Of a DNA stretch of 29,775 nt, positions 3,366 through 29,523 are shown piece after piece. How positions within the stretch are numbered: position 1 is the stretch's first letter; each line of letters opens with the position of its first letter. Source of the stretch: a virus. Below the pieces are notes generated by a model. The model was not told where the DNA came from, searched no databases, and saw only the letters and a list, made by a program, of their open reading frames with translations. Made by a program: the position numbers and the translations under genes. The DNA is taken from IMG/VR virus record IMGVR_UViG_3300031951_000874, positions 1 through 29,775 of that record; one strand, written 5' to 3'.

Positions 3366-3367
3366 AA

Positions 3368-18855: not shown

Positions 18856-18857
18856 GA

Positions 18858-18882: not shown

Positions 18883-18890
18883 AAACCTCG

Positions 18891-18974
18891 ACGTAAACCC
18901 TTACAGCATAAGGACTTACAGCAAAATCGCGGCCGCAAAATCGACCTAAGTGCTTACGCTGCAACGACTTACGA
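18891..18974 (+). repeat. 3' hairpin element, copy 1
   Basis: The TAAGGACTTA / GCGGCCGC (18929-18936) / TAAGTGCTTA / GACTTAC architecture with the invariant 38- and 15-base spacings. Stem CAGCATAAG (18904-18912) pairs with CTTACGCTG (18953-18961) with one mismatch. It is followed by a sigma54-like site and a promoter. Confidence 0.85.
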
Positions 18975-19017
18975 CAAATCGCCGTAGCAAATCGCGTGCC
19001 ACAAATAAATATTTTTT

Positions 19018-19032
19018 CGGCATGATATTTGC
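19018..19032 (+). promoter_or_regulatory. Sigma54-type consensus match, second copy
   Basis: CGGCATGATATTTGC has GG and GC 10 bases apart. It lies after hairpin copy 1 and before the promoter at 19070. Later cassettes keep GGCATG but lose the GC. Confidence 0.3.
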
Positions 19033-19069
19033 ACACTCAAAAAAATCTTTTTCCTAACATAATCCTAAC

Positions 19070-19104
19070 TTGAACCCTCAAGTGTGGCGTGTATAATGCC
19101 GATA
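19070..19104 (+). promoter_or_regulatory. Sigma70-like promoter with downstream CCGATA
   Basis: TTGAAC, 16 bp, TATAAT (19092-19097), then CCGATA at 19099-19104. It is preceded by two CCTAAC repeats 11 bp apart. It drives the genes at 19140 and 19298. Confidence 0.75.
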
Positions 19105-19139
19105 TAACAAGTAAGAGAGAAAGAAAGAGAGAGAAAGTT

Positions 19140-19295
19140 ATGAGAGAGATGGTTTTTTTCGTTTCCGATTGCTGCAATGTTGAGAGTGATGAAAATCATG
19201 CAATTTGCTCGGCTTGTGGTGAGCATTGTGAGATTATCACTGAAGTTTACGAAAACGATTACATTCCCGGTTATGATGATGGGGAGGCTTGCTGA
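19140..19295 (+). CDS. Small zinc-ribbon protein, paralogue of the gene at 18365
   Basis: I start at ATG 19140 because an earlier in-frame ATG lies in the promoter -10. The 51-residue product (MREMVFFVSDCCNVESDENH) has the CC pair, then ICSACGEHC, and ends YIPGYDDGEAC. Five cysteines can form a zinc ribbon. Its leader is a GAGA-rich purine tract and not a classic SD. It is followed 2 bases later by the gene at 19298. Function is unknown. Confidence 0.7.
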   Translation: MREMVFFVSDCCNVESDENHAICSACGEHCEIITEVYENDYIPGYDDGEAC

Positions 19296-19297
19296 AC

Positions 19298-19531
19298 ATG
19301 AAAACGCTTTTGAAGAATGTTGGTTTCTCTAACCCCACCAAAGGGTGGAATGTGCAAGTAAACCTGTTTAGGTTCGATGGTGAAAAGCGTATACGTTGGG
19401 TTTATTCGAATTCGGAAATTATGCGTAGGGTGTGGGATAGGGTGAACCCTTCCGACCTTGAATCTTTCTACGCTTGGGTGCATGATAGCGTAAGCGATTT
19501 TGTGGCCCATGTTGAGAAGCGACCCACCTGA
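19298..19531 (+). CDS. Small unknown protein
   Basis: A 77-residue protein (MKTLLKNVGFSNPTKGWNVQ) read from ATG 19298, with GGGGAGG 10 bases upstream inside the preceding gene; an upstream TTG is too close to that SD. It is rich in aromatic residues (RIRWVYSNSEIMRRVWDRVN, FYAWVHDSVSDF) and has no membrane segment. It is transcribed with the zinc-ribbon gene. The family is not recognised. Confidence 0.6.
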   Translation: MKTLLKNVGFSNPTKGWNVQVNLFRFDGEKRIRWVYSNSEIMRRVWDRVNPSDLESFYAWVHDSVSDFVAHVEKRPT

Positions 19532-19601
19532 TAGGGGGGTTGTGGATCACAAAAAAAGTTTGGTACAATCCATCAGTTCAATCAACCATAAGGAATAAAA
19601 A

Positions 19602-19922
19602 ATGAAGTCTGCTATCCTGTCTGATTTTCGTCGCAGCATCCTCGCTCATTTTGAGGGTATCGCTATCGTTCACCAGCCCTCCCTCGCGGAAGGGGTATAT
19701 GGCCCCATCCATAGCGAGAAGGTTTTGAAGTTCAATCGCAAGGCGTTGCGGAATATCGGAAAGCGTAAGGTTGAGAAGGTTGACCCCCGCGTTGTGGGGG
19801 GTGAGGATACGATGATCCTGCCCGTGGGCAAGCCGGGTTCGCGTGAGAGGGTCGAAGCGTTGGCCGCTCAATATGCAGCAGCAGCAGGGGAGGAAATATC
19901 CCCCTTTGGGTGGGAGGGCTAA
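19602..19922 (+). CDS. Small basic unknown protein
   Basis: A 106-residue protein (MKSAILSDFRRSILAHFEGI) with AAGGA before the ATG. The centre is basic (KFNRKALRNIGKRKVEKVDP) and the end is Ala/Gly-rich (RVEALAAQYAAAAGEEISPF). It is GC-richer than the left-half genes. GC mini-hairpin sequences (CCCCCGCGTTGTGGGGGG near 19785) lie inside the coding sequence, so part of the C-terminus may derive from such repeats. A weak promoter (TACAAT near 19563) precedes it. No function is assigned. Confidence 0.55.
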   Translation: MKSAILSDFRRSILAHFEGIAIVHQPSLAEGVYGPIHSEKVLKFNRKALRNIGKRKVEKVDPRVVGGEDTMILPVGKPGSRERVEALAAQYAAAAGEEISPFGWEG

Positions 19923-19940
19923 TATCCCCCATTTGGGGTG

Positions 19941-19973
19941 GTGTACAAGTGTACAGTAGTGTACGCATGTACA
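19941..19973 (+). promoter_or_regulatory. Cluster of four GTAC sites
   Basis: GTAC cores at 19943, 19951, 19961 and 19969 (spacing 8, 10, 8) lie just before hairpin copy 2, as at 18858 before copy 1. Confidence 0.45.
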
Positions 19974-19990
19974 GTGAAACACAAAACTTG

Positions 19991-20074
19991 ACGCAAACCC
20001 TTATGGCATAAGGACTTACGACGGTTTCGCGGCCGCGGATTCGACGTAAGTGCTTGCTACATAACGACTTACAT
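19991..20074 (+). repeat. 3' hairpin element, copy 2
   Basis: Same ungapped core; GCGGCCGC at 20029-20036. ACTTACG and CGTAAGT form a perfect 7-bp stem around the GC palindrome. An inverted pair GTGCCA/TGGCAT and a promoter follow. Confidence 0.85.
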
Positions 20075-20144
20075 CAAACTCTAACGCAAACGCTGTGCCA
20101 AAGATTTTTTTTGTTTGGCATGAAATTATATTTGAAAAATTCGC

Positions 20145-20179
20145 TTGCAATCTAAAGATCGGCCTGTAAAATACCGATA
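20145..20179 (+). promoter_or_regulatory. Sigma70-like promoter with downstream CCGATA
   Basis: TTGCAA, 16 bp, TAAAAT (20167-20172), CCGATA at 20174-20179; GGAGG and the start at 20200 follow. Confidence 0.7.
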
Positions 20180-20199
20180 TAATCACAACGGAGGAAACG

Positions 20200-20394
20200 A
20201 TGAACGAGATGCTGATTCTGGAAAGCCTGAACGATTGCAAAACCCGAAACGATGTTGAGAATCTGTGGACTGCCACCTATCTTCAATACCGCGACGAGGC
20301 TTGGAAGGTATGGCAGAAGTTTGAAGATCGACGCGGCAAGGTGCTGCCATCGCCCAACAATTTCAGCCCAACATATACGGGGTCGTGGGACTGA
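20200..20394 (+). CDS. Small unknown helical protein
   Basis: A 64-residue protein (MNEMLILESLNDCKTRNDVE) with GGAGG 6 bases before the ATG and its own promoter. The first 45 residues are helical with several Trp (ENLWTATYLQYRDEAWKVWQ); the tail is Pro/Ser-rich. It is followed by the 41-nt RNA motif. No family is recognised. Confidence 0.65.
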   Translation: MNEMLILESLNDCKTRNDVENLWTATYLQYRDEAWKVWQKFEDRRGKVLPSPNNFSPTYTGSWD

Positions 20395-20402
20395 CTGTTC
20401 CA

Positions 20403-20443
20403 CCTAACCCTTCGGGTTTGGCTGGGGTGGCTGTAGTCAGCGA
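20403..20443 (+). ncRNA. 41-nt double-hairpin RNA motif, copy A
   Basis: AACCC-TTC-GGGTT hairpin, then GCTG-TAGT-CAGC hairpin. It matches the copy at 24880, where the first stem changes to AATCC/GGATT by compensatory exchange. It lies between a stop codon and the next promoter. Confidence 0.6.
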
Positions 20444-20450
20444 AAAGCGT

Positions 20451-20485
20451 TTGACTTTTAAAGTTTAGCCTGTAGAATACCGATA
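20451..20485 (+). promoter_or_regulatory. Sigma70-like promoter with downstream CCGATA
   Basis: TTGACT, 16 bp, TAGAAT (20473-20478), CCGATA at 20480-20485. It drives the gene at 20503. Confidence 0.75.
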
Positions 20486-20502
20486 ACACTAGGGAGAAGA
20501 AA

Positions 20503-20811
20503 ATGACTCATGCAGAAGCGGTTGTGATGGTGCAAGGTAAGCGTAATAAGACTAGCCGAAAGATTGGCAACAATACCTACGCTGAAATTCTACATGATAA
20601 TACTGTGGCAATTAAGTTGCATAGTACCTATGTGGTAAAGATTAATAGTAATGGTACGTATACCCTTAATAGTGGGGGTTGGCAGACTGTGACCACGAAG
20701 GATAGAATTAATCAGTATAGCCCGGTGAGAGTTTACCAGCGGGATTTTACTTGGTATGTTAAGATTAACGGTAAAGAATATCCGTTTATGGATGGTATGG
20801 TGGTTTCATAA
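20503..20811 (+). CDS. Conserved-type phage protein of unknown function
   Basis: A 102-residue protein with GGGAG before the ATG. The segments NTYAEILHDNTVAIKLHSTY, TLNSGGWQTVTTKDRINQY and WYVKINGKEYPFMDGM belong to a small protein type seen in many unrelated phages, whose function I do not know. It is beta-rich with no membrane segment. It heads a unit with two membrane mini-proteins. Confidence 0.7.
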   Translation: MTHAEAVVMVQGKRNKTSRKIGNNTYAEILHDNTVAIKLHSTYVVKINSNGTYTLNSGGWQTVTTKDRINQYSPVRVYQRDFTWYVKINGKEYPFMDGMVVS

Positions 20812-20828
20812 TAAAAAGGAGTCCATGG

Positions 20829-20948
20829 ATGGATCTTTTCGAGCCTTATAGTTTAGTATTTGGTATTATTGTGGGTGTAACAGCGTGTTATGCCTTGAGC
20901 GATTTAGTTTTTCCAAAGGAATCGGAAAATGAATCTGACGATATTTGA
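20829..20948 (+). CDS. One-pass membrane mini-protein
   Basis: A 39-residue ORF (MDLFEPYSLVFGIIVGVTAC) with GGAG 7 bases before the chosen ATG. Residues about 8-28 form one transmembrane helix and the tail is acidic (PKESENESDDI). It overlaps the next mini-ORF. Function is unknown. Confidence 0.55.
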   Translation: MDLFEPYSLVFGIIVGVTACYALSDLVFPKESENESDDI

Positions 20949-21012
20949 AGGAATTACACTATTCTGCACGTTTATAGTGGGGTGCATCACGGCCTGGATT
21001 GTTAATACTTGA
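20929..21012 (+). CDS. 27-residue membrane peptide
   Basis: MNLTIFEGITLFCTFIVGCI followed by TAWIVNT, preceded by AGGA 8 bases before the ATG. Nearly the whole peptide is one hydrophobic helix. Its stop codon touches hairpin element copy 3. The short length lowers certainty. Confidence 0.45.
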   Translation: MNLTIFEGITLFCTFIVGCITAWIVNT

Positions 21013-21095
21013 CGCAAAGCCTTGCCTCGTAAGAACTTACGACAAGGCCGCGGCCGCGAAATCGACATAAGTGCTTACGGGACAACGGTTTACGA
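21011..21095 (+). repeat. 3' hairpin element, copy 3
   Basis: GCGGCCGC at 21050-21057 with invariant spacings. Stem CTCGTAAG (21026-21033) pairs with CTTACGGG (21074-21081) through 8 bp, including one G-U, with a different sequence from copies 1 and 4. Confidence 0.85.
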
Positions 21096-21178
21096 TCTAT
21101 AGCCACAGCAAACGGTATGCCGCAAAAATTTTTGTGGTTTGGCATGGAATTATTTTTCAAAAAATCCAAAGATTTTGC

Positions 21179-21206
21179 TTGCGTTGGCCGATAATTATGG
21201 TATCCT
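21179..21206 (+). promoter_or_regulatory. Sigma70-like promoter with CCGATA in spacer
   Basis: TTGCGT, 16 bp containing CCGATA (21188-21193), TATCCT (21201-21206). It drives the gene at 21236. Confidence 0.65.
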
Positions 21207-21235
21207 AAGCGTATCACCCCAACGGAGAAACGAAG

Positions 21236-21412
21236 ATGAGCCTTGATGAAATCAACGATATTCTGGCCTGCATGCGGGATGATGGTATGATCGAGCCGAT
21301 TGACGAGATTGACGTTCACCCTCTGGAGTTTGCTGACGTTACGGGTACTTTCGATGAAATGTATCCTGAGCCGATGGTTGACGATAACGGTATCTTCTGG
21401 TACACCCACTAA
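21236..21412 (+). CDS. Small acidic protein
   Basis: A 58-residue ORF (MSLDEINDILACMRDDGMIE) with GGAG before the start and a good promoter. It is acidic throughout (DEIDVHPLEFADVTGTFDEM). It is followed 12 bases later by a far more acidic gene. Both could be nucleic-acid mimics or bind basic partners, but no motif proves this. Confidence 0.6.
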   Translation: MSLDEINDILACMRDDGMIEPIDEIDVHPLEFADVTGTFDEMYPEPMVDDNGIFWYTH

Positions 21413-21424
21413 AAAGGAAAAGTC

Positions 21425-21682
21425 ATGAGTCACCCCGATCCCTTGTTCGATCCCGATAACTCTTATGAGGATGATATGAATTACGATGACCACAATGATT
21501 TTTGGGGTTTGCCGGAAAACGAGCTGGATGAAATCCGTGATCAAATGAATGAAGATGAAGGTTATGATGATGATGACTATGATGACAGTATGGATGGCGA
21601 CCATGATTCCGCGATGGAGTCAGCGGGTTGGGGAACCGATGAGGATTACGGTTATTTTGGCGACTACGGGGAGGATTACTAA
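21425..21682 (+). CDS. Extremely acidic protein, possible DNA mimic
   Basis: An 85-residue protein in which Asp and Glu make up close to 40 percent, with runs such as DEGYDDDDYDDSMDGDHD, and many Tyr and Gly. It has no lysine and very few arginines. AAAAGGAAAAG precedes the start; it is coupled to the next gene by TAATG. Phage proteins of this composition often mimic DNA to block restriction or nucleoid proteins. That role is only suggested by composition. Confidence 0.65.
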   Translation: MSHPDPLFDPDNSYEDDMNYDDHNDFWGLPENELDEIRDQMNEDEGYDDDDYDDSMDGDHDSAMESAGWGTDEDYGYFGDYGEDY

Positions 21683-21849
21683 TGGAAAGTTATAGTCAGC
21701 GATTAGAAGCGGCTTATAAGGCTTATTTGGATGCTGTGGAGGATATTAGTCAGCCGTATTCTGAAGTCAGTCGGCTTCGATCTGAATATGAACAATTGTG
21801 GTGGGAAACGGAAATTATTCCCAAAGTACATGTTGACAGCAACCGATAA
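21682..21849 (+). CDS. Small helical protein
   Basis: A 55-residue ORF (MESYSQRLEAAYKAYLDAVE) coupled by TAATG to the acidic gene, with GGGGAGG upstream. It is helical and could form a coiled coil over residues 5-45. The downstream promoter starts within its last codons. Function is unknown. Confidence 0.6.
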   Translation: MESYSQRLEAAYKAYLDAVEDISQPYSEVSRLRSEYEQLWWETEIIPKVHVDSNR

Positions 21850-21861
21850 GTATGGTATGCT
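21833..21861 (+). promoter_or_regulatory. Sigma70-like promoter with CCGATA in spacer
   Basis: TTGACA, 17 bp containing CCGATA, TATGCT (21856-21861). It overlaps the end of the preceding gene and drives the two membrane-type genes downstream. Confidence 0.7.
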
Positions 21862-21885
21862 TGGTTTATCACTTGGAGAATGAAA

Positions 21886-21975
21886 ATGTTTTGGATGTGG
21901 ATGATTAGTACGATTGTGACGGTTTTTACTTGTGGTGTTTTGTTTACTGATATTTGTTGTAACTGCGATTTCTAA
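21886..21975 (+). CDS. 29-residue membrane peptide with cysteine tail
   Basis: MFWMWMISTIVTVFTCGVLF then TDICCNCDF. I use ATG 21886 because GGAG lies 7 bases before it. One transmembrane helix ends in a CC-x-C tail that could bind a metal or form disulfides. Function is unknown. Confidence 0.45.
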   Translation: MFWMWMISTIVTVFTCGVLFTDICCNCDF

Positions 21976-21988
21976 AAAAGGAAAAAAT

Positions 21989-22396
21989 ATGAACGATGCG
22001 TTTATTGTTGGTAGTGTTTTTGCGGTTGTGACTTGTGGTCTTCTGGCTTTTGCCGCTTTCCACGTTTATGCTGGTGTGCGTGATAATCTGATTACTGCTA
22101 GGGTTGGTGGTGTTTACAATTTTGTATATCATCAGCCGCTGCATGGTGAGCCTGAGCGTTACATGGCAAGGGTACTGGAAGTTCATCGGCTGTCGGATGA
22201 AAGTATCCGCCGACTGAATAGACAAAGTCGCTATCGTAGGTATGATGATAACTTTCAGCGTACTACTCACCTTGTAACTGCACAAACTCCCGATGGTAAG
22301 ATTCGCAACTTTTACGCTGAACGTACCACGAATGTGCGTCGTCCCCTCCTTGGTGGGGTAGCGTTTAAGACGGGATTGGCATCGTTTCTCTGCTGA
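21989..22396 (+). CDS. Membrane-anchored phage protein of unknown function
   Basis: A 135-residue protein from ATG 21989 (AAGGA 6 bases upstream; longer in-frame starts overlap the previous ORF). Residues 4-27 form a transmembrane helix (AFIVGSVFAVVTCGLLAFAA). A soluble basic domain follows: LITARVGGVYNFVYHQPLHG, SIRRLNRQSRYRRYDDNF and RNFYAERTTNVRRPLLGGV. I recall similar proteins in other phages without known function. The domain side is likely cytoplasmic because of its positive charge. Confidence 0.6.
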   Translation: MNDAFIVGSVFAVVTCGLLAFAAFHVYAGVRDNLITARVGGVYNFVYHQPLHGEPERYMARVLEVHRLSDESIRRLNRQSRYRRYDDNFQRTTHLVTAQTPDGKIRNFYAERTTNVRRPLLGGVAFKTGLASFLC

Positions 22397-22410
22397 TCGT
22401 GGCAGTCGCT

Positions 22411-22492
22411 CTAAGTCTTTGCCAGCCAAGGACTTAGGGCGAGGCCGCGGCCGCGAAATCATCGTAAGTGCTTACTGGCTAAGACTTTACAA
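22411..22492 (+). repeat. 3' hairpin element, copy 4
   Basis: GCGGCCGC at 22447-22454. It has the strongest outer stem: GTCTTTGCCAG (22415-22425) against CTGGCTAAGAC (22475-22485), 10 of 11 paired. It starts 15 bases after a stop codon. Confidence 0.9.
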
Positions 22493-22519
22493 CAAACTAA
22501 ATTTGATCAAGAAATTTGG

Positions 22520-22547
22520 TTGACAAACCGATTATGTTCTGTAGACT
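22520..22547 (+). promoter_or_regulatory. Sigma70-like promoter of a probably leaderless gene
   Basis: TTGACA, 16 bp with CCGATT, TAGACT (22542-22547). The expected start site is at or next to the ATG at 22554. Confidence 0.7.
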
Positions 22548-22553
22548 CACACT

Positions 22554-23030
22554 ATGTTTACCACAAAAAATCTTGATCGTGTGCTGAATGAAGTTCGTGG
22601 ACTTCATAACAAATCTATCTTCTCTCCCAAGAAAAGCATTTTGGCCTATCGACTCTCCAAGATGAGTAGCCAGTATAGGGGTAATGCTATTGAGCGTATG
22701 ATTAGAGACTATTATAAGAGTACTGGTAAGATTGTTTCCTATATTGGTGGTAGTGCATCATTTGATATGATGGTGAATGGTCGCAAGGTAGAAGTAAAAT
22801 CTGCTTTGGCTCGCGTTGGTGTGGTGGGTGGTGTGGTAAAATATAGTTATAAGTTTCAACATATTTGCCCAAATAATTTTCACAAATTGGTTTTAGTATT
22901 TGTATCTCCGGAGGGATTGAGTGTTAGGGTGATGGATAGCCGAACTGCGGCCAAGTATCTTGGCTCCAAACGTGCCCACAGGAATCTTTATGTGGGAAAA
23001 CGGATTGTGGGTAAAGTTTTGGCCGCTTGA
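22554..23030 (+). CDS. PD-(D/E)XK-like nuclease
   Basis: A 158-residue basic protein. YRGNAIERMIRDYYKSTGKI (with E47), then GGSASFDMMVNGRKVEVKSA, gives a D71...E80-V-K82 active site in the usual beta-strand setting of restriction-enzyme-fold nucleases. The single domain has no recognition domain. The start codon sits about 7 bases after the -10, so the mRNA is probably leaderless; no SD exists. Candidate roles are host DNA degradation, recombination or exclusion of competitors. The fold assignment is by motif; the substrate is unknown. Confidence 0.65.
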   Translation: MFTTKNLDRVLNEVRGLHNKSIFSPKKSILAYRLSKMSSQYRGNAIERMIRDYYKSTGKIVSYIGGSASFDMMVNGRKVEVKSALARVGVVGGVVKYSYKFQHICPNNFHKLVLVFVSPEGLSVRVMDSRTAAKYLGSKRAHRNLYVGKRIVGKVLAA

Positions 23031-23054
23031 CAACCGATAAACATAGTGTACAAT
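23027..23054 (+). promoter_or_regulatory. Sigma70-like promoter of the long non-coding transcript
   Basis: TTGACA, 16 bp with CCGATA, TACAAT (23049-23054). It overlaps the stop of the nuclease gene; transcription should begin near 23061. Confidence 0.8.
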
Positions 23055-23060
23055 GATTGA

Positions 23061-23476
23061 AGAACAAGCAAACGCTTGTTGGCTATGTCGGGCCGAGCAG
23101 CCGGTAAAAACGGTAGTTGATGTCCTAGGAAACGTCTTCTACAATCGGTCCTAACAATACAAACTTCCGTGGGTCCATGCTCAAGGGACTAGATAGGGAT
23201 AAGCCATTACGATAAACCTACGGCTGTTATGCAGCGTGGGGTTGACAGCGGGCTTATACGCTGTATAGTAGTGCCTATCTATGTGGGATTGCGTCCAGAC
23301 CACGGCCAATACAACCAGTAACCGCTTGAATAGCAAGGTGATGAAATACTGATCATATTTCTAGGGACCAATGTCGTGGGCGGTTTCCACTAGTTTTTAC
23401 CTGGCCCAAGGGTTAAAAATATCGGGTACTAGATTGGATTATAGAATCGGGGCGTAAAAGATTCGCTGGTTTTTTC
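23061..23476 (+). ncRNA. Structured non-coding RNA of about 415 nt, unknown class
   Basis: This gap between two strong promoters has no credible ORF on the plus strand and many helices. Examples: AACAAGC-AAAC-GCTTGTT (23063-23080), an 11-position stem (23113-23123 with 23132-23142, two U-U), TAGATAGG (23190-23197) with CCTATCTA (23274-23281), ATGCAGCGT (23229-23237) with ACGCTGTAT (23258-23266), GAAATA/TATTTC (23343-23361), and TTTTTACC (23394-23401) with GGTTAAAAA (23411-23419). ATAAGCC (23199-23205) can pair with GGCTTAT (23251-23257) inside a loop, making a pseudoknot. T6 at 23470-23475 may mark the 3' end, although its hairpin is weak. It matches neither tmRNA nor RNase P RNA signatures as I know them. 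Confidence 0.65.
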
Positions 23477-23479
23477 TTA

Positions 23480-23507
23480 TTGACTTACCGATAAAGAATG
23501 GTATAAT
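23480..23507 (+). promoter_or_regulatory. Sigma70-like promoter with CCGATA in spacer
   Basis: TTGACT, 16 bp with CCGATA, TATAAT (23502-23507). It drives the five-gene unit from 23526. Confidence 0.8.
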
Positions 23508-23525
23508 GGTGGAAAGGGAGAGAAA

Positions 23526-23753
23526 ATGACAGTTAACGAACTGATTGAGCAGTTGAAGAGTTATCCGGCTGATATGCGGGTTCTTACTCTTGGTTATGAG
23601 GGTGGGTATAATGATACCGGTCTGAAAACTGAAGAGGTTGTGTTTAATTTTTCCAAGAATGACGCTTGGTATTATGGGCCTCATGAGAGTGTGAAATTGA
23701 CCGATAGTGATAGTGGTACGAAGTGTTTGATCGTTACGAGGGCTAAATCATGA
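23526..23753 (+). CDS. Small conserved-type protein
   Basis: A 75-residue protein with GGGAG before the ATG. MTVNELIEQLKSYPADMRVL then TLGYEGGYNDTG matches a small protein type common in phages and bacteria: an N-terminal helix, P-x-D, then a strand with GYEGG. Its function is unknown. It overlaps the next gene by ATGA. Confidence 0.65.
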   Translation: MTVNELIEQLKSYPADMRVLTLGYEGGYNDTGLKTEEVVFNFSKNDAWYYGPHESVKLTDSDSGTKCLIVTRAKS

Positions 23754-23956: not shown

Positions 23957-23963
23957 AGATTTA

Positions 23964-24453: not shown

Positions 24454-24665
24454 TGGCTAAAAACTTTAAAGATTTGCATACCGTGGATGCTAAGGATATG
24501 AATCGTGATCAGGCCATGATTTATATTATTAACTTTTTTAACTCTCGTATGAGTGCTATTAACAATCATAATGTGAGTAAGACTAAAGAGTTGATATCTA
24601 CTCATGAGATTGCTGTAAGTGAACTTGTGGATAAGTATGTTCAATTAGTACTCGCTAACTCCTGA
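24453..24665 (+). CDS. Small helical unknown protein
   Basis: A 70-residue protein (MAKNFKDLHTVDAKDMNRDQ) predicted to be helical along its length. It is the last gene of a five-gene unit; hairpin element copy 5 begins right after its stop. No family is recognised. Confidence 0.6.
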   Translation: MAKNFKDLHTVDAKDMNRDQAMIYIINFFNSRMSAINNHNVSKTKELISTHEIAVSELVDKYVQLVLANS

Positions 24666-24666
24666 T

Positions 24667-24737
24667 AGGGTAAGGACTTAGGAAGAGTTCGCGGCCGCGA
24701 ATTTGATCTAAGTGCTTATCCAACAACGACTTAGGAT
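24667..24737 (+). repeat. 3' hairpin element, copy 5
   Basis: It has a perfect 14-bp palindrome TTCGCGGCCGCGAA (core 24691-24698). Stem GGGTAAG (24668-24674) pairs with CTTATCC (24715-24721). ACTTAG/CTAAGT also pair, replacing ACTTAC/GTAAGT of other copies. Confidence 0.9.
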
Positions 24738-24753
24738 TTTTTAAAGAATCCTC

Positions 24754-24781
24754 TTGACTATCCCGATAATAGATGTATACT
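24754..24781 (+). promoter_or_regulatory. Sigma70-like promoter with CCGATA in spacer
   Basis: TTGACT, 16 bp with CCGATA, TATACT (24776-24781). Only a doubtful 28-codon ORF and the 41-nt RNA motif lie before the next promoter, so its product may be a small RNA. Confidence 0.7.
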
Positions 24782-24797
24782 TAGGGGGCAAGTAGAT

Positions 24798-24884
24798 TTG
24801 GGCCGTTGGCAGAATGATATCAAAGAAGCCGCGGTTAAATGCAAAGCCGAGTATGGCATAACCCAATCTATTTGTCTCTCCTAA
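24798..24884 (+). CDS. Possible 28-residue ORF with TTG start
   Basis: GGGGG lies about 9 bases before TTG, then GRWQNDIKEAAVKCKAEYGI and TQSICLS. The stop falls within the 41-nt RNA motif. It may be a leader peptide or not translated at all. Confidence 0.25.
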   Translation: MGRWQNDIKEAAVKCKAEYGITQSICLS

Positions 24885-24920
24885 TCCTACGGATTTGGCT
24901 AGAGTGGCTGTAGTCAGCGA
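24880..24920 (+). ncRNA. 41-nt double-hairpin RNA motif, copy B
   Basis: AATCC-TAC-GGATT then GCTG-TAGT-CAGC. Paired changes relative to copy A at 20403 keep the first stem. It lies 11 bases before the next -35. Confidence 0.6.
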
Positions 24921-24931
24921 GATTAAAGGTA

Positions 24932-24960
24932 TTGACAACGATTGATCGATAAGGTATAGT
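24932..24960 (+). promoter_or_regulatory. Sigma70-like promoter of a probably leaderless gene
   Basis: TTGACA, 17 bp with TCGATA, TATAGT (24955-24960). The ATG at 24967 coincides with the expected +1. Confidence 0.7.
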
Positions 24961-24966
24961 ACAAAT

Positions 24967-25374
24967 ATGAAACGCACACACTACGAAATACGATTTCATC
25001 TTGGTGCTGGTTCTAACTATATGCACTGGCAAGTAAAGGCCATGTGTGGCAGTGAGAAGTTGGATGTTTATTATTATGATCCGGCATATTATCAGTTGGA
25101 AATGATTAAGTGCCGATTGGTGAATAAAATAAATAAGGCTAAACAGGTATACGAGGCTGGTGTGCATGATGTGAGTGGATGGGTAAAGTGTGACGAGGTT
25201 ATGATCAATAATGAAATAGGGGTTGACAACCTAGAAAAGTTATACTATAATCCTATTCGTGATCCGCACTGGCGACGAGAAAGTGACTACAACGAATTCG
25301 TTTGGGATGATAGCGAATACGCTACTTTACTAACTAACGGCAAACAAGTTTACGTTTTGGAAGAAAGGGTTTGA
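24967..25374 (+). CDS. Phage protein of unknown function
   Basis: A 135-residue protein starting MKRTHYEIRFHLGAGSNYMH and continuing WQVKAMCGSEKLDVYYYDPA. I have seen this N-terminal pattern in other phage proteins without a known role. A helical middle (QLEMIKCRLVNKINKAKQVY) and a Trp-rich region follow (DVSGWVKCDEVMINNE). The start lies at the predicted transcription start, with no SD, so it is likely a leaderless mRNA. It shares a transcript with the L7/L12-like gene that begins 2 bases later. Confidence 0.6.
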   Translation: MKRTHYEIRFHLGAGSNYMHWQVKAMCGSEKLDVYYYDPAYYQLEMIKCRLVNKINKAKQVYEAGVHDVSGWVKCDEVMINNEIGVDNLEKLYYNPIRDPHWRRESDYNEFVWDDSEYATLLTNGKQVYVLEERV

Positions 25375-25376
25375 AT

Positions 25377-25745
25377 ATGATCAATCTGCAACTGAGTGTT
25401 CGTGAGGCTATGAATCTGGCTACGAACTGCAATCTGGAAATCTATGAGCGGATCGTGACCGCTTTTGAGGTTGCGTTGGGCGTGAACCAGCGTCGTATGG
25501 TTACGATCACCAAGGGTATGGATTGCAACAATCGTATCTCTTGCATCAGGGCTGTTCGACAGCACACCGGCTGGGGATTGAAGGAAGCGAAGGATTGGAC
25601 CGATGGTATGGTTGGTCGCTACGATGAGAGCGGATTCTGGCGTGGTGGTGGCAACCCCATCACTCTCACCGCTAAAACTCCCGAGGCGGCTGAACAGTTG
25701 CTGCGTGACCTGACCTCTTTGGGTTGTGAGGGTTATCTCTCTTGA
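25377..25745 (+). CDS. Protein with ribosomal L7/L12 C-terminal-like domain
   Basis: A 122-residue protein read from ATG 25377 (AAAGGG 6 bases upstream). Residues about 52-120 follow the L7/L12 C-terminal domain: RISCIRAVRQHTGWGLKEAK, then a strand-helix-strand ending EAAEQLLRDLTSLGCEGYLS. The G-x-GLKEAK loop is the part that contacts translation factors in the ribosomal protein. The N-terminal 50 residues differ from the L7/L12 dimer domain. It may recruit or block elongation factors or be a general protein-binding module; the function is inferred. Its stop codon is fused to hairpin copy 6. Confidence 0.65.
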   Translation: MINLQLSVREAMNLATNCNLEIYERIVTAFEVALGVNQRRMVTITKGMDCNNRISCIRAVRQHTGWGLKEAKDWTDGMVGRYDESGFWRGGGNPITLTAKTPEAAEQLLRDLTSLGCEGYLS

Positions 25746-25828
25746 CCTAAAGCCTTGCTACCAAAGAACTTGGGGCAAGGCCGCGGCCGCGAACTCGACG
25801 TAAGTGCTTATGCCACAACGACTTAGGC
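25746..25828 (+). repeat. 3' hairpin element, copy 6
   Basis: GCGGCCGC at 25783-25790, invariant spacings. It starts directly at the preceding stop codon. Outer CCTAAAG can pair with the final CTTAGG. Confidence 0.85.
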
Positions 25829-25856
25829 AAAAGTGAAAAACGATTCAAGTACGCTG

Positions 25857-25885
25857 TTGACATTAGACGATACACACTGTAGAAT
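25857..25885 (+). promoter_or_regulatory. Sigma70-like promoter with CGATA in spacer
   Basis: TTGACA, 17 bp with ACGATA, TAGAAT (25880-25885), serving the gene at 25931. Confidence 0.75.
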
Positions 25886-25930
25886 GATAGCATGATGGTT
25901 GAGACTAACACTAACTTGAAAGGGTCTGAT

Positions 25931-26185
25931 ATGAAGAAGTTTTCGTTTGTTGTTGATGTGGTTGCTGATGAACTGGATCGTGATGCTGTTGTCGATTCGA
26001 TCTCGTCTTGTCTGACCGATGCTCTGCCCGGTGATGTTCATGCGAATGTCAAGGCTGGAGAGGTCAAGGCTTTCAGCGAGCAGGGTTATAAGGTGTGGCG
26101 TGCTCGTGTTACTGGTGTGACAGCGAAGCAGGCCGGTGATGCTCACAATGGTAAGGTGGAGGCCGAAGCCGAAGCAGTTGCCTGA
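25931..26185 (+). CDS. Small unknown protein
   Basis: An 84-residue protein. I prefer ATG 25931, which has GAAAGGG upstream, over ATG 25892, which coincides with the predicted transcription start. MKKFSFVVDVVADELDRDAV, then SISSCLTDALPGDVHANVKA, suggests an alpha/beta fold resembling small ferredoxin-like domains. The tail is Ala/Glu-rich (GKVEAEAEAVA). GC content is higher than in the structural genes. A hairpin terminator follows. Function is unknown. Confidence 0.6.
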   Translation: MKKFSFVVDVVADELDRDAVVDSISSCLTDALPGDVHANVKAGEVKAFSEQGYKVWRARVTGVTAKQAGDAHNGKVEAEAEAVA

Positions 26186-26213
26186 ATATAATCTATCTGT
26201 TATAATTCCGATA
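26178..26213 (+). promoter_or_regulatory. Candidate promoter of the tRNA-Arg/Asp pair
   Basis: TTGCCT, 17 bp, TATAAT (26201-26206), then CCGATA at 26208. The CCGATA is also the first arm of the terminator that follows, so promoter and terminator overlap. Confidence 0.5.
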
Positions 26214-26247
26214 GACCGCTGGTGCAAACTGGCGGCTATCGGTTTTT
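26208..26247 (+). terminator. Rho-independent terminator
   Basis: CCGATAG-A-CCGC pairs with GCGG-CTATCGG (11 bp, one bulge), 12-base loop, then TTTTT. It should end transcripts from the gene at 25931, directly before tRNA-Arg. Confidence 0.8.
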
Positions 26248-26319
26248 GGCCCCATAGTTAAATGGATATAACAGTTGCCTTCTAAGCAATTATTAGAGGT
26301 TCGATTCCTCTTGGGGCTA
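26248..26319 (+). tRNA. tRNA-Arg (TCT)
   Basis: Acceptor GGCCCCA/TGGGGCT, anticodon loop CTTCTAA, T-arm AGAGG-TTCGATT-CCTCT. CCA is not encoded. It reads AGA codons, common in the AT-rich structural genes. Confidence 0.88.
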
Positions 26320-26323
26320 TTTA

Positions 26324-26397
26324 GGGAGCGTAGATCAATCGGTTAGATCGCTAGCCTGTCACGCTAGAGGTTGCGGGTTCGAGTCCCGTCGCTCTCG
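26324..26397 (+). tRNA. tRNA-Asp (GTC)
   Basis: Acceptor GGGAGCG/CGCTCTC (one G-U), anticodon stem CTAGC with loop CTGTCAC, T-loop TTCGAGT. CCA is not encoded. Confidence 0.9.
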
Positions 26398-26400
26398 CTA

Positions 26401-26478
26401 AATCATTGCAGCGTAAGGACTTACGACAGATTCGCGGCGGCGAGTTTGATGTAAGTTGTTGTGCCACAACGGTTTAGA
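26401..26478 (+). repeat. 3' hairpin element, copy 7 (altered centre)
   Basis: Same 38/15 spacing but the centre is GCGGCGGC (26434-26441), so the NotI palindrome is lost. It is the only copy following a tRNA instead of a protein gene. Confidence 0.8.
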
Positions 26479-26506
26479 ACAAAAATATTTTTGCCAAAGT
26501 TTTCGC

Positions 26507-26535
26507 TTGATTGTGACGATACCATAGTGTAGAAT
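26507..26535 (+). promoter_or_regulatory. Sigma70-like promoter with CGATA in spacer
   Basis: TTGATT, 17 bp with ACGATA, TAGAAT (26530-26535), serving the GP88-like gene. Confidence 0.75.
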
Positions 26536-26557
26536 CAGTAGACACAGGGAGACAATC

Positions 26558-27262
26558 ATGAAAACTGCTGACGGTAATGACAAGTTGGGTAAGGGTTGCA
26601 TTGTGGTTTCGCGTCCAGTGGGCGATACTTGCCCGAGTGACTGCGACTATCTCAACAATGGATGCTATGCAGAAGCAACCGAGAATCAGTATAAAAATGC
26701 CCGCGTTGCAGGCTTTGCTAATATTGTTACAGAAAAGCATAAGATTCGCTCTATGATTCTTGACGCTAAAAAGCGTAAGAAAAGTATTCGGTGGCATGAG
26801 CGTGGTGACTGGTTTCTCAACGGCGAACTTGACCTTGACTATGTTGCCAACGTGACGTGGGCTTGTGAGAGTATTCTTGCCGATGGTGATACGCTGCCCG
26901 ATATGTGGTTTTATACTCATATTTATGATAGTCGGCTTGTTAGTCTGGAAAAGTATATGAATGTCTATGCTAGTGTCCATGATAATAAAGATATGGGCGA
27001 GGCTATGGCACAAGGTTTCAAGTTGTTCGCGTGGTGTGATAGTGATATGAAAATCGCTCCCAAGCGTCCTAAGAGCAAGGCTAAGGCGGAAGCATGGCGT
27101 AAAGCGTTGCCGAAACTGGTTGTGCTGAACGGTACAAAGTTTGTAACTTGTCCCGAGATTCGTCGTGGTCGGTCTGTTATTACTTGCACTGGTACTAAGG
27201 ATAGTATTAGTTGTGATATGTGCGTCAAGGGTCTGGCTAACGTGTTGTTTCCTGCTCACTAA
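26558..27262 (+). CDS. GP88-like phage protein
   Basis: A 234-residue protein with GGGAG before the ATG. The start GKGCIVVSRPVGDTCPSDCD then YLNNGCYAEATEN has cysteines at 14, 25, 29 and 36, and it continues with IRWHERGDWFLNGELDLDYV. This matches the mycobacteriophage Gp88-type family (PF17338 as I recall it). The family shares the C-x3-C-x6-CYA pattern of phage proteins distantly like radical-SAM enzymes. More cysteines near the end (TCPEI, SCDMC) may bind a cluster or zinc. The biochemical role is unknown to me. Confidence 0.7.
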   Translation: MKTADGNDKLGKGCIVVSRPVGDTCPSDCDYLNNGCYAEATENQYKNARVAGFANIVTEKHKIRSMILDAKKRKKSIRWHERGDWFLNGELDLDYVANVTWACESILADGDTLPDMWFYTHIYDSRLVSLEKYMNVYASVHDNKDMGEAMAQGFKLFAWCDSDMKIAPKRPKSKAKAEAWRKALPKLVVLNGTKFVTCPEIRRGRSVITCTGTKDSISCDMCVKGLANVLFPAH

Positions 27263-27272
27263 GGAATAAATT

Positions 27273-27440
27273 ATGTGGGATATTATTGATAATAGGAAAG
27301 TTAGAGCGGTATGGGAGTGTCCAGATTGTGAGGATGAAGTTAATATAAATCCTAACTGGTATCAAGATAATGGTACTCCCGTTTGTGAAGAATGTGGTTG
27401 TGATATGAAATATATGCACACGGAGATTAACAATGGCTAA
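27273..27440 (+). CDS. Small zinc-ribbon protein
   Basis: A 55-residue ORF (MWDIIDNRKVRAVWECPDCE) with two knuckles, CPDC and CEECGC, about 22 residues apart, a classic zinc ribbon. AAGGA precedes the start. It overlaps the next gene by 8 bases. It is unrelated in detail to the zinc-ribbon pair at 18365 and 19140. Function is unknown. Confidence 0.65.
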   Translation: MWDIIDNRKVRAVWECPDCEDEVNINPNWYQDNGTPVCEECGCDMKYMHTEINNG

Positions 27441-27669
27441 ATATTATGTAAAAAGTGGTTCACTAGAAATGATTTTTGCAAGCGATAAGAATCCTTTCGA
27501 GGCTGCACAACAAAGTGTGTGGGAATTAAATGATAATGATACTATTGACGAATATTTCTATATAGATGAGCGTGGTTTTAGGGATTATATAACTGCTGAT
27601 GGTCACACTTGCGTATTCAAGAGTATGGCGGTATTAGATGCTGCGGGCTGGAATATGGATGATATGTAA
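27433..27669 (+). CDS. Small acidic phage protein
   Basis: A 78-residue protein (MAKYYVKSGSLEMIFASDKN) with GGAG 8 bases before the ATG. It has an alpha/beta pattern: FEAAQQSVWELND helix, then DEYFYIDERGFRD strands, ending in LDAAGWNMDD. Short proteins of this look are frequent in phage early regions. Function is unknown. Hairpin copy 8 follows its stop. Confidence 0.6.
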   Translation: MAKYYVKSGSLEMIFASDKNPFEAAQQSVWELNDNDTIDEYFYIDERGFRDYITADGHTCVFKSMAVLDAAGWNMDDM

Positions 27670-27676
27670 TCGCTAG

Positions 27677-27761
27677 CCGTAAACCCTTTGTGCATAAGCA
27701 CTTAGGGAACGGCCGCGGCCGCGAATTCTTCGTAAGTTGTTTGCTATCAACCACTTAGGAA
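27677..27761 (+). repeat. 3' hairpin element, copy 8
   Basis: GCGGCCGC at 27715-27722, spacings kept. The right arm is degenerate (TAAGTTGTTT in place of TAAGTGCTTA). Confidence 0.85.
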
Positions 27762-27786
27762 AAACTAAAGGTTCGCTAGAGAATGG

Positions 27787-27805
27787 CCGATAAATGGTGT
27801 ATAAA
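27787..27805 (+). promoter_or_regulatory. Late-type box on the plus strand with CCGATA
   Basis: CCGATA (27787-27792) precedes ATGGTGTATAAA (27794-27805). It has the GGTGTAT core of the minus-strand late boxes and no good -35, unlike other promoters here. It drives the gene at 27818. Confidence 0.45.
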
Positions 27806-27817
27806 GGGAGTTGACAA

Positions 27818-28171
27818 GTGAAACAGACTGTGGTACAACTAATCGTAGCACTACTGGGATTGGTAGTGTTAGTTTGGGGAGAGATGAAACATTATACTGA
27901 TTCTCACCCCGAGATAGTGGATACGTTTAGACTTGAAAGAAAACAGGCTCAACCGCTACAATACTTCATGTATCAAGTAGCATACGATCCTAACAATAAT
28001 AAAACGTGGTATCTTCACAACGATGGGTTATGGTATGACAAGCCGCCGCAAATACGAAAACGTGAAAATCAAGGTCAAGCAACGCTGGGAACTGGCAACG
28101 GGTCACAGGGAGCATCGGGACACGGTAATGGACAACCGGCCCAAGCGGGAGCGTACCCGATCCGCCGTTGA
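27818..28171 (+). CDS. Membrane-anchored protein with Gly-rich tail
   Basis: A 117-residue protein with GTG start and GGGAG 7 bases upstream. Residues 5-21 are a transmembrane helix or uncleaved signal anchor (VVQLIVALLGLVVLVWG). A soluble part follows (PLQYFMYQVAYDPNNNKTWY), then a low-complexity Gly/Gln/Asn tail. Its promoter resembles the late type, so it may act late, for example at the envelope during lysis. This is speculative; no spanin or holin signature is certain. Confidence 0.55.
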   Translation: MKQTVVQLIVALLGLVVLVWGEMKHYTDSHPEIVDTFRLERKQAQPLQYFMYQVAYDPNNNKTWYLHNDGLWYDKPPQIRKRENQGQATLGTGNGSQGASGHGNGQPAQAGAYPIRR

Positions 28172-28196
28172 CAAGACTTGGCGTAATGAGTATGAT
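28168..28196 (+). promoter_or_regulatory. Sigma70-like promoter of the tRNA-Thr/Gln/Glu array
   Basis: TTGACA, 17 bp, TATGAT (28191-28196), overlapping the stop of the preceding gene; no CCGATA is present. Confidence 0.7.
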
Positions 28197-28206
28197 ATGT
28201 AGTCTT

Positions 28207-28278
28207 GCCAGCGTAACTCAGTGGTAGAGTAGTTGTTTTGTAAACAACCTGTCGGGGGTTCGATTCCCTCTGCTGGCT
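28207..28278 (+). tRNA. tRNA-Thr (TGT)
   Basis: Acceptor GCCAGCG/TGCTGGC, anticodon arm GTTGT-TTTGTAA-ACAAC, T-loop TTCGATT. It ends directly at the next tRNA. CCA is not encoded. Confidence 0.9.
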
Positions 28279-28349
28279 TCCGGGGTGGTGTAACGGTAGC
28301 ACTAGTGACTTTGGATCACTTTGTCTGGGTTCGAATCCTAGCCCCGGAA
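28279..28349 (+). tRNA. tRNA-Gln (TTG)
   Basis: Acceptor TCCGGGG/CCCCGGA, anticodon arm AGTGA-CTTTGGA-TCACT, T-loop TTCGAAT. There is zero spacing from tRNA-Thr, so processing must separate them. Confidence 0.9.
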
Positions 28350-28378
28350 TCGGAGGCTGACGTTTGAGTTGCGAGTGT

Positions 28379-28450
28379 GGCCCCATCGTATAACGGCTAG
28401 TACGTATCCCTTTCACGGATAAAATCAGGGTTCGATTCCCTGTGGGGTCA
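28379..28450 (+). tRNA. tRNA-Glu (TTC)
   Basis: Acceptor GGCCCCA/TGGGGTC, anticodon arm TATCC-CTTTCAC-GGATA, T-loop TTCGATT. CCA is not encoded. Confidence 0.9.
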
Positions 28451-28465
28451 CTAAAGTTTTTGGGG

Positions 28466-28493
28466 TTGACAAGACGATAACATAGTGTATAAT
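28466..28493 (+). promoter_or_regulatory. Sigma70-like promoter of tRNA-Lys
   Basis: TTGACA, 16 bp with ACGATA, TATAAT (28488-28493), 10 bases before the tRNA. Confidence 0.8.
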
Positions 28494-28503
28494 GCTAGAA
28501 TAA

Positions 28504-28576
28504 GGGCCATTAGCTCAATTGGCAGAGCAGCATCCTTTTAAGTTGTAGGTTGAAGGTTCGAGTCCTTCATGGCCCA
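28504..28576 (+). tRNA. tRNA-Lys (TTT)
   Basis: Acceptor GGGCCAT/ATGGCCC, anticodon loop CTTTTAA, T-arm GAAGG-TTCGAGT-CCTTC. The anticodon stem has G-U and one U-U. Confidence 0.88.
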
Positions 28577-28605
28577 TTGACAGTTTGACCGGTTTGGTGT
28601 ATAGT
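28577..28605 (+). promoter_or_regulatory. Sigma70-like promoter abutting tRNA-Lys
   Basis: TTGACA starts right after the tRNA; 17 bp; TATAGT (28600-28605) preceded by TTTGGTG. It serves the acidic gene at 28627. Confidence 0.7.
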
Positions 28606-28626
28606 GGTAGAAAAGGAGAAAGGCTT

Positions 28627-28812
28627 ATGAGATATGATAACGAAGATTATTACGGTGACGATAGCGATACTTTTGATTACGATAGCCTTGCTAGAGACTG
28701 TGATGACTTGTATTCATGCGATGAGGAATATGATGAGCATGATGAGGAAACTGTTAGCCACTCGGACTGGGAAAACTATTACCACAATCTAACTGAGGAA
28801 ATTGACGATTAG
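28627..28812 (+). CDS. Extremely acidic protein, possible DNA mimic
   Basis: A 61-residue protein (MRYDNEDYYGDDSDTFDYDS) from ATG 28627 with GGAGAAAGG upstream. Asp and Glu make up roughly 40 percent, and it has no lysine. Together with the protein at 21425 it is one of two unusually acidic, Tyr-rich products of the early region. Composition suggests a DNA mimic or a partner for basic proteins; no fold can be named. Confidence 0.6.
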   Translation: MRYDNEDYYGDDSDTFDYDSLARDCDDLYSCDEEYDEHDEETVSHSDWENYYHNLTEEIDD

Positions 28813-28825
28813 CCTTCTCTTCTGA

Positions 28826-28914
28826 ACGGATGCTGCTGGTGGGACAGCAATCTATCATAAGGAATCATCCTTTCTTATTCTTCTCTTTAGTTGGTTCGAA
28901 TCCAACCATCCGTT
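28826..28914 (+). tRNA. tRNA-like structure with long variable region, anticodon uncertain (CAT?)
   Basis: A perfect 7-bp acceptor (ACGGATG/CATCCGT) and a perfect T-arm (GTTGG-TTCGAAT-CCAAC) are present. The D-arm GCTG-GTGGGA-CAGC is short and lacks A14. The best anticodon loop is ATCATAA (CAT) in a mismatched stem, with about 24 bases before the T-arm. It may be a divergent or decaying tRNA or a tRNA mimic. Confidence 0.45.
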
Positions 28915-28917
28915 TTT

Positions 28918-29412
28918 ATGATTACTACAAACGTTAATCGCACCGAAGAAGGCAAGTATATCCAGGCTGCTAGCCACACTTGCCATGTTTTGAATCACAA
29001 GGTTCGAAATAAGATTATTATTAGGGCCGTTTGTGATCTGCGTAAAATTAGTGATAGTTTTGATAGCATAGCCTGTTGTGGTGCTAGTGGCATGATGGTA
29101 GTTCCACAGATTGCAGAATTGCTCAATAAAAATATTGTTTTGGTGCGTAAGGGTGAGAAGTGTTATAGTGAGCATATGGTAGAAGGTGTTGCTCCTTTTA
29201 GATACATTATTGTGGATGATCTAATTTGCTCTGGCAGTACAATTAAAGATATTAAGAATAAAATTAAGAAAGAATATTCCCGAGCAATTTGTATGGGAGT
29301 TTATTGTTATCTGCCTCACGAAACAGCATATAAGGATGACGAGGCTGGATCTAAACTTTGCCAACGTGATCTTGGTGTGCCTCTCCTAAATCTATGCCCT
29401 GTAAGGACTTAG
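28918..29412 (+). CDS. Phosphoribosyltransferase-like protein
   Basis: A 164-residue protein. YIIVDDLICSGSTIKDIKNK (residues 96-115) is the PRPP-binding loop of type I phosphoribosyltransferases: hydrophobic strand, D100-D101, then a G-S-T turn. The upstream strand FDSIACCGASGMMVVPQIAE matches the preceding PRTase core. It could act in nucleotide salvage or in a modified base pathway; the base is unknown. ATG 28918 lies 4 bases after the tRNA-like structure and has no SD, so the start is uncertain. The stop codon lies inside hairpin copy 9. Confidence 0.7.
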   Translation: MITTNVNRTEEGKYIQAASHTCHVLNHKVRNKIIIRAVCDLRKISDSFDSIACCGASGMMVVPQIAELLNKNIVLVRKGEKCYSEHMVEGVAPFRYIIVDDLICSGSTIKDIKNKIKKEYSRAICMGVYCYLPHETAYKDDEAGSKLCQRDLGVPLLNLCPVRT

Positions 29413-29469
29413 GGCGAGTTCGCGGCCGCGGGTTTGATGTAAGTTGTTACGAGCCAACGACTTACGACG
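29392..29469 (+). repeat. 3' hairpin element, copy 9
   Basis: GCGGCCGC at 29422-29429, spacings kept. The last codons and stop of the phosphoribosyltransferase gene lie in the left arm (GTAAGGACTTAG). Confidence 0.85.
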
Positions 29470-29494
29470 CGAAATTTTTTCTCAAAGTTTCTGC

Positions 29495-29523
29495 TTGACT
29501 TGGCCGATATCATACTGTAGAAT
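29495..29523 (+). promoter_or_regulatory. Sigma70-like promoter with CCGATA in spacer
   Basis: TTGACT, 17 bp with CCGATA, TAGAAT (29518-29523), serving the DUF932 gene. Confidence 0.8.

Follow-up and report, generated by a model that had tools for sequence, protein, structure and literature searches.

The question raised by the 29,775-base virus record IMGVR_UViG_3300031951_000874 (IMG/VR), analysed over its full length and referred to here as the window, is what a 78-bp element repeated nine times on its plus strand does. No larger genome lies behind the record, and the same virus is also present as a 39,868-base IMG/VR contig, with pieces 99.96-100% identical. An initial annotation had read the repeats as a kept RNA hairpin closing transcription units, and had listed a protein site among its other options. 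It is the latter option that gains support from the symmetry of the element, its position relative to promoters and its helical phasing. Judged from sequence comparison, the element is probably a double-stranded DNA site for an upstream regulator of several dimers, which would contact RNA polymerase from one face of the helix. The nine copies, each recognised by pattern match, alignment and model, are as follows.

18894..18971, plus strand, element copy 1, with four boxes and the G/C core at 18929-18936
19994..20071, plus strand, element copy 2
21015..21092, plus strand, element copy 3
22412..22489, plus strand, element copy 4
24656..24733, plus strand, element copy 5
25748..25825, plus strand, element copy 6
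26399..26476, plus strand, element copy 7, with core GCGGCGGC
27680..27757, plus strand, element copy 8, with no promoter recognised downstream
29387..29464, plus strand, element copy 9

The nine annotated places were borne out by a core pattern which, with up to three mismatches allowed, matched the window 18 times (nine sites on both strands), against 0.02 matches expected from shuffled sequences. The copies align without gaps, and in every one the starts of the CTTA-like boxes are separated by 38 and then by 15 bases, as had been counted. The sequences described as shared are so in part: GCGGCCGC is present in eight of the nine copies and is replaced in copy 7 by its own core, TAAGTGCTT is present in six and gives way to TAAGTTGTT in copies 7-9, and the last box ends in GACTTA in five and not in the rest. 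A fourth box and a two-fold symmetry, absent from the initial annotation, were also found.

The element consists of four 10-bp boxes, roughly TAANNNCTTA, arranged in two pairs with 15 bp from box to box within a pair and with two-fold symmetry around an 8-bp core, the right half being approximately the reverse complement of the left half. Column counts on sets of 85 and 321 copies give the consensus of the boxes, in order, as roughly TAAACCCTTG, TAAGGACTTA, TAAGTNCTTA and CAACGACTTA. Pairings were counted on both strands and include one duplicate locus. Box starts are 15 bp apart in 331 of 332 pairings of the left pair and in 310 of 365 of the right pair, where 53 exceptions at offset 6 are probably a box matching itself; the two halves were spaced by 38 bp in 242 pairings, by 37 bp in 40 and by other distances in 6. 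The 5-base spacers show almost no sequence preference. Each of the eight core columns is 85-98% G or C, yet the core has no fixed sequence: 215 of 321 cores are entirely G/C and 35 of 321 are palindromic. Some relatives also have half-elements, which comprise only the G/C core and two boxes.

Copies beyond the window were collected with a weight matrix made from the nine copies and refined in three rounds, which gave 113 copies in other loci and, with the nine of the window, 106 distinct sequences. The sets for column counts held 85 copies less than 85% alike and 321 copies less than 80% alike, the latter out of 500, and copies of the 37-bp form were left out of the pairing test on the 321. 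Also removed before counting were duplicates of the window itself (L006-L009 and L011-L018), locus L126 except in the count of box spacings, contexts sharing at least a quarter of their 12-mers, 13 loci of the second set from contigs already counted, one class A promoter of the second set less than 70 bp away and, in the promoter-association counts, elements within 230 bases of the end of a locus.

Promoters were assigned to class A when CGAT lies between the -35 and -10 boxes, and to class B when it lies just after the -10 box. The following were predicted downstream of the copies in the window.

19070..19097, plus strand, predicted promoter of copy 1, class B, CGAT just after the -10 box
20145..20172, plus strand, predicted promoter of copy 2, class B
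21175..21201, plus strand, predicted promoter of copy 3, exact boxes uncertain
22520..22547, plus strand, predicted promoter of copy 4, class A, CGAT inside the spacer
24754..24781, plus strand, predicted promoter of copy 5, class A
25857..25885, plus strand, predicted promoter of copy 6, class A
26507..26535, plus strand, predicted promoter of copy 7, class A
29495..29523, plus strand, predicted promoter of copy 9, class A

The initial annotation had a promoter following within about 100 bases. A CGAT-type promoter does lie downstream of eight of the nine, at distances that vary: the -10 centre is 84-96 bp from the element centre in five copies and about 137-162 bp in three, and none was recognised for copy 8. 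Most copies had likewise been described as starting 0-15 bases after a stop codon. This applies to four of the nine (2-15 bases); in the other five the stop falls inside the element (two copies), a tRNA ends directly before the element (one) or the stop is 71 and 108 bases away (two). In a compact genome, an element placed immediately before the next promoter accounts equally well for such an end-of-gene position.

The predicted early promoters of the window (17995-29523) carry CGATA-like motifs between the -35 and -10 boxes or just after the -10 box, with or without an element; the motif, which was part of the promoter search itself, is possibly an operator or a factor site.

The same arrangement recurs outside the window. 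In the first set, same-strand promoter-like sites downstream of 149 elements outnumbered those of the opposite strand by 72 to 8 at 50-100 bp and by 31 to 4 at 100-150 bp. Among distinct elements, 303 of 392 have a predicted CGAT-type promoter within 210 bp downstream, compared with 224 of 1,637 control points. The first set comprised 117 contexts, of which 64 had a class A promoter, 16 a class B promoter and 37 neither. The second, drawn from other contigs, added 276 contexts, of which 169 contributed a class A promoter to the analysis, 32 had a class B promoter and 74 had none.

Distances from element centre to -10 centre at class A promoters are not spread evenly. They peak at 95 bp in the first set, with groups at 83-85, 104-107, 126-129 and 145-150 and a few between, and at 84-86, 94-97, 103-107 and 116 bp in the second. 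The periodicity is R 0.63 at 10.75 bp for the 64 promoters of the first set and R 0.52 at 10.8 bp for the 169 of the second. When distances were shifted at random by up to 8 bp in 2000 trials, the observed phasing was reached in none, in either set. With the peak at 92-98 bp left out, it was reached in 6 of 2000 trials for the first set (39 promoters) and in none for the second (105 promoters), and the remaining distances are in phase with 95 bp (V-test u 3.5 and 4.9, respectively, at 10.5 bp). Nine elements have a promoter only on their other side, at distances of 90.5, 94.5, 94.5, 95.5, 115.5, 116.5, 128.5, 139.5 and 182.5, several of which fall on the shared peaks. Box 4 is located 34 bp after the element centre and so, taking the -10 centre as -9.5, comes to lie at about -60, -70.5, -80.5 and -91.5 at the main peaks of 84-85, 95, 105 and 116 bp.

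Promoters were also located at half-elements. L128 has eight partial matches. In five of them a class A promoter follows box 2 at 80-84 bp, placing box 2 near -90; another is followed by a class B promoter at 70 bp, and the remaining two have no promoter. The partial matches listed number 89, including right halves of full elements, and 22 have class A promoters at 80-208 bp. As a separate observation, in L050 (3932), L137 (7768), L310 (12583) and others a half-element is followed by a G run and a T run (GGGGGGTTTTTT). A second repeated motif, GCAAANNNYRTGCCAAA with its mirror TTTGGCAYRNNNTTTGC, often forms an inverted pair, as at window positions 17930, 20086-20122 and 21138 and in many relatives; it is found mostly in long spacers between element and promoter, and stands at the place of the right half in several half-elements. 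This motif resembles the sigma-54 -24/-12 consensus.

Taken together, the phasing, the positions of box 4 and the half-elements make a regulator that contacts the polymerase the simplest reading. The regulator, probably as several dimers, would sit on the four boxes and contact RNA polymerase at the next promoter, most likely through the alpha C-terminal domain; contact from one face of the helix could bring many early operons under common control. The positions of the element would suit an activator, while the already strong class A promoters would suit the holding or slowing of polymerase, and neither side is favoured. In class A, the 214 promoters that have an element surpass the 320 that lack one in the quality of the -35 and -10 boxes and in upstream A/T content. 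In class B, the boxes of the 39 promoters with an element are like those of the 100 without, and upstream A/T differs. The groups lacking an element include chance matches in both comparisons.

Several results weigh against a polymerase-contacting regulator. A plain activator is not needed for class A, since class A promoters with an element are nearer to consensus than those without. No promoter was recognised on either side of 80 of the 392 elements, and the 16 class B promoters of the first set are not clearly phased (300 of 2000 shifted trials reach the observed value). Even with similar contexts removed, element-promoter units may still be related by descent, which could raise the periodicity. 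Finally, no convincing candidate for the binding protein emerged from subtraction, profile and conserved-protein searches. Subtraction, in which open reading frames of at least 60 amino acids in G011 had to match in the other element-bearing genomes G014, G018 and G034 and in neither of the element-poor G020 and G021, left two frames, a 78-amino-acid frame and a 160-amino-acid protein, neither of which is regulator-like.

By eye the 160-amino-acid protein is HNH-like, with no HNH match in Pfam. Relaxing the subtraction to two of the three genomes gave 10 members, made up of small proteins and probable shadow frames. The proteins held in common with the divergent phage G006 include a sigma-like pair, an HNH enzyme, a GDP-mannose dehydratase and others, with no clear regulator, and none was evident among the top 25 families when 110 conserved proteins were scanned against Pfam and PHROGs.

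A D5-like protein encoded near the element cluster (window 13763-14575) was considered as a specific binder and rejected. Its profile, phrog_323, matches 39 of 39 records at E 0.01, some of the matches being short or weak, and also 13 of 14 control genomes; in tblastn the protein is found at 72-78% identity in the element-poor relatives G017, G020 and G021, together with its sigma-like neighbour at 48-54%. Neither gene, therefore, explains the occurrence of the element, unless specificity has changed. The genes at window 13763-14575 and 14568-15215 (minus strand), like those at 3033-3824 and 3817-4350 of L124, overlap and have the look of a split sigma factor. One gene matches sigma-70 region 2 at E 7.7e-4 in the window, below the curated cut-off, and at E 7.7e-6 in L124, above it, and the neighbouring gene in L124 has a weak region 4 match (E 0.016). 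This pair, which is conserved beside the terminase, perhaps serves late genes.

The binder is possibly a host protein, in which case similar four-box sites are expected in host genomes; a search of such genomes gave only six contigs with a pattern whose variable-gap form catches 30 of the 113 known copies, and the host may lie outside the collection searched.

The element would resemble multi-copy phage control sites (SPBRE/MrpR, stoperators and p4 sites) in the way it works, and it fails, or does not clearly show, a defining feature of each one tested. At phi29, p4 holds or slows polymerase at a strong early promoter. Its sites, four of them in the A2c-A3 region, have the consensus CTTTTT-15 bp-AAAATG. 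They are imperfect inverted repeats from which p4 represses early A2b and A2c and activates late A3 (PMC3100819). A strong promoter with a phage regulator site upstream is common to both, and the element differs in having four TAAnnnCTTA-like boxes around a G/C core and up to 18 copies. CRP is a host factor with a single 22-bp site. According to PMC5352689, CRP needs no partner when its site is near -61.5, -72.5, -82.5 or -92.5, where it shares a helical face with polymerase. The positions of box 4 are close to these and likewise about one helical turn apart, while the sequence of the CRP site is unrelated to the element. The SAS/ESAS of cluster K mycobacteriophages is a repeated intergenic element near gene starts and, compared by description only, differs in length, sequence and place.

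Among other explanations, DNA looping is unlikely. A protein on the element and another on CGAT would form a loop or nucleoid complex, repressing or timing early genes without polymerase contact. Helical phasing is also expected of such a complex, and the position of CGAT within class A promoters is fixed, at 13-14 bp ahead of the -10 box in 53 of 64. In the same promoters, however, the elements are phased to CGAT (R 0.62) no better than to the -10 (0.63) or -35 box (0.65), and in element-rich loci 325 of 533 CGAT promoters are without an element and 208 have one.

A roadblock, with a protein bound to the element stopping elongation from the upstream operon as at the stoperators of cluster A mycobacteriophages, is distinctly improbable. 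In its favour, copies are numerous between gene groups, most of those in any one genome share an orientation, and the downstream promoters are on the same strand. L5-type stoperators likewise occur in many copies in promoters and short intergenic spaces with an orientation linked to transcription (PMC9283540). Those sites, however, are 13 bp long and asymmetric (PMC9283540) and are bound by a monomer, whereas the element is 78 bp and two-fold symmetric. Helical phasing to the downstream promoter is not expected of a roadblock. L5 stoperators are not known to be phased to promoters.

A site of site-specific recombination serving gene-module exchange, in which inverted arms would flank an 8-bp core as in lox, is very unlikely. 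The core is variable and so flanked, and one relative appears, from a reading of sequence matches, to be without one element-plus-operon unit. Against this, the core is mostly G and C, the promoter phasing is unexplained, and all 22 records searched, of which several are fragments, lack a match to Phage_integrase (PF00589), with 14 of 14 control genomes matching; serine recombinases were not searched for. The PF00589 result also touches on SPBRE, a 15-bp motif in intergenic repeats of the large temperate phage SPbeta that was found by sequence and later shown to be bound by a single master regulator, MrpR (PMC10516654). The element is likewise a repeated intergenic element of a large phage first found by sequence; it differs in its length of 78 bp and in the absence of PF00589 matches from the 22 records. 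MrpR has a tyrosine-recombinase fold, and a strongly diverged fold of this kind could escape a sequence search.

The RNA hairpin at the ends of transcription units, as a terminator, processing or stability signal, was weighed last. Pairing of left and right arms with different sequences had been put forward in its favour, and such matches do exist in single copies. The check proposed with it, covariation in related phages, was run on the 321 non-redundant copies and showed no excess of pairs in any group: Watson-Crick pairs numbered 419 observed against 464 expected in the five spacer pairs, 1393 against 1396 in the ten arm pairs, 2052 against 2075 in boxes 1/4, 2441 against 2450 in boxes 2/3 and 714 against 702 (z 0.8) in the core, with no preference for G-U over A-C mismatches.

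Smaller sets gave stronger signals. With G-U included, the nine copies of the window have 26 spacer pairs where comparison with other copies predicts 17.5 (p about 0.02); with Watson-Crick pairs alone the numbers are 19 and 13.6 (p about 0.12), and this excess is limited to the 5-base spacers. Among the 85 copies the spacers show no excess (129 against 133), and the total, 2056 against 2012 (z 2.3), is raised mainly by core columns, two pairs of which have z 4.2 and 3.3 and one -3.3. For 64 copies, three of five covariation measures exceeded nearly all of 500 shuffles: paired cells (68.7% against 67.2%, reached by 5), cells changed on both sides (172 against 138, reached by 3) and the covariation score (0.167 against 0.144, reached by 1). 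The measures counting pairs and types, which are least prone to relatedness, were at chance (246 and 98 of 500). Kinship among sequences can raise such scores without structure, and copies in one phage are related; the signals of the smaller sets are read as relatedness because they are absent from the larger, less redundant set.

Folding is better than in shuffles (z below -2) for seven of the nine window copies, and every copy is able to fold, as expected of any two-fold symmetric DNA site. An Rfam scan gave only tRNAs above the curated cut-off and no family for the element, and an intrinsic terminator, defined by the rule used here as a G/C stem followed directly by a T run, spans one of 392 elements. 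Although copies often lie close behind a stop codon, the kept hairpin is thus the least probable explanation, with no covariation in 321 copies, no Rfam family, a freely varying G/C core and a phasing to the next promoter that is not expected of an RNA signal belonging to the preceding unit. It serves as a caution that a symmetric DNA site can mimic a conserved RNA hairpin when copies are few.

The element extends well beyond the genome of the window, with hundreds of copies in uncultured phages, in records of up to 244 kb. Relatives of the window terminase in IMG/VR number at least 599, on contigs of up to 230 kb, and the best 80 of these were used. A sequence-only model of the element, R1, the tables of which often list one site on both strands, matched 24 of 26 records at E 0.001, including the window and its duplicate record; matches were weak in G005, G017 and G020, and there was none in G009 and G021. 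It also matched 34 of 36 further records at E 1e-6, these having been preselected for holding the pattern and the two misses being genome bins. G017, G020 and G021 carry a terminase as in the window virus and, by the R1 search, no convincing element. Among the matches listed, the elements of long records lie in one stretch of roughly 10-20 kb, and the genome stretches mapped hold up to 18 copies.

One exact pattern was found in at least 119 stretches of viral contigs, against six in 84,980 bacterial and archaeal species genomes (257 Gb). Those six lie in metagenome bins, on contigs 3.6-35 kb long. R1 also matches four of the six genomes, and the contigs are most simply phage DNA binned with host DNA. 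BLAST with one 87-base consensus found no match in 50,697 phage or 72,556 plasmid records; as a control, with the E-value scaled to the phage collection, the same consensus recovers 137 collected loci at E 0.01 or below. Window positions 5000-29000 have no near match in cultured phages, and the terminase is about 24% identical to that of Bacillus phage Stahl and others. No paper naming the element came up in the open-licence literature, in a search directed at such elements broadly.

Some neighbouring features were recorded. About 400 bases at window 23040-23460 are without a recognised plus-strand gene, with stretches 78 and 95% identical in L001 and no Rfam match, and are a possible structured RNA. 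A hairpin-like repeat (CCTAACCCTTCGGGTTTGGCT...CTGTAGTCAGCG) occurs at window 20396-20445 and 24872-24925 and in several relatives, and clusters of GTGTAC/GTACAC palindromes lie at 18856-18883 and 19942-19978, upstream of copies 1 and 2. The protein at window 25371-25745 has a stretch like the ribosomal L7/L12 C-terminal domain (Pfam E 1.4e-6, above the cut-off), and that at 20503-20811 matches Gp96 of the cyanophage family Kyanoviridae (Pfam E 1.3e-10), which hints weakly at the host.

What is known of large uncultured phages comes almost entirely from their genes, and here several hundred natural copies reveal, without experiment, the geometry of a regulatory site in its spacing, helical phase and half-elements. 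The element marks the early operons of these phages. Tentatively, it may be part of an undescribed regulatory code of theirs, in which a new class of regulator, made by phage or host, would read paired boxes around a G/C core free of fixed sequence and would set the timing of early operons, up to about 18 per genome, by holding or recruiting the host polymerase from fixed faces of the helix.

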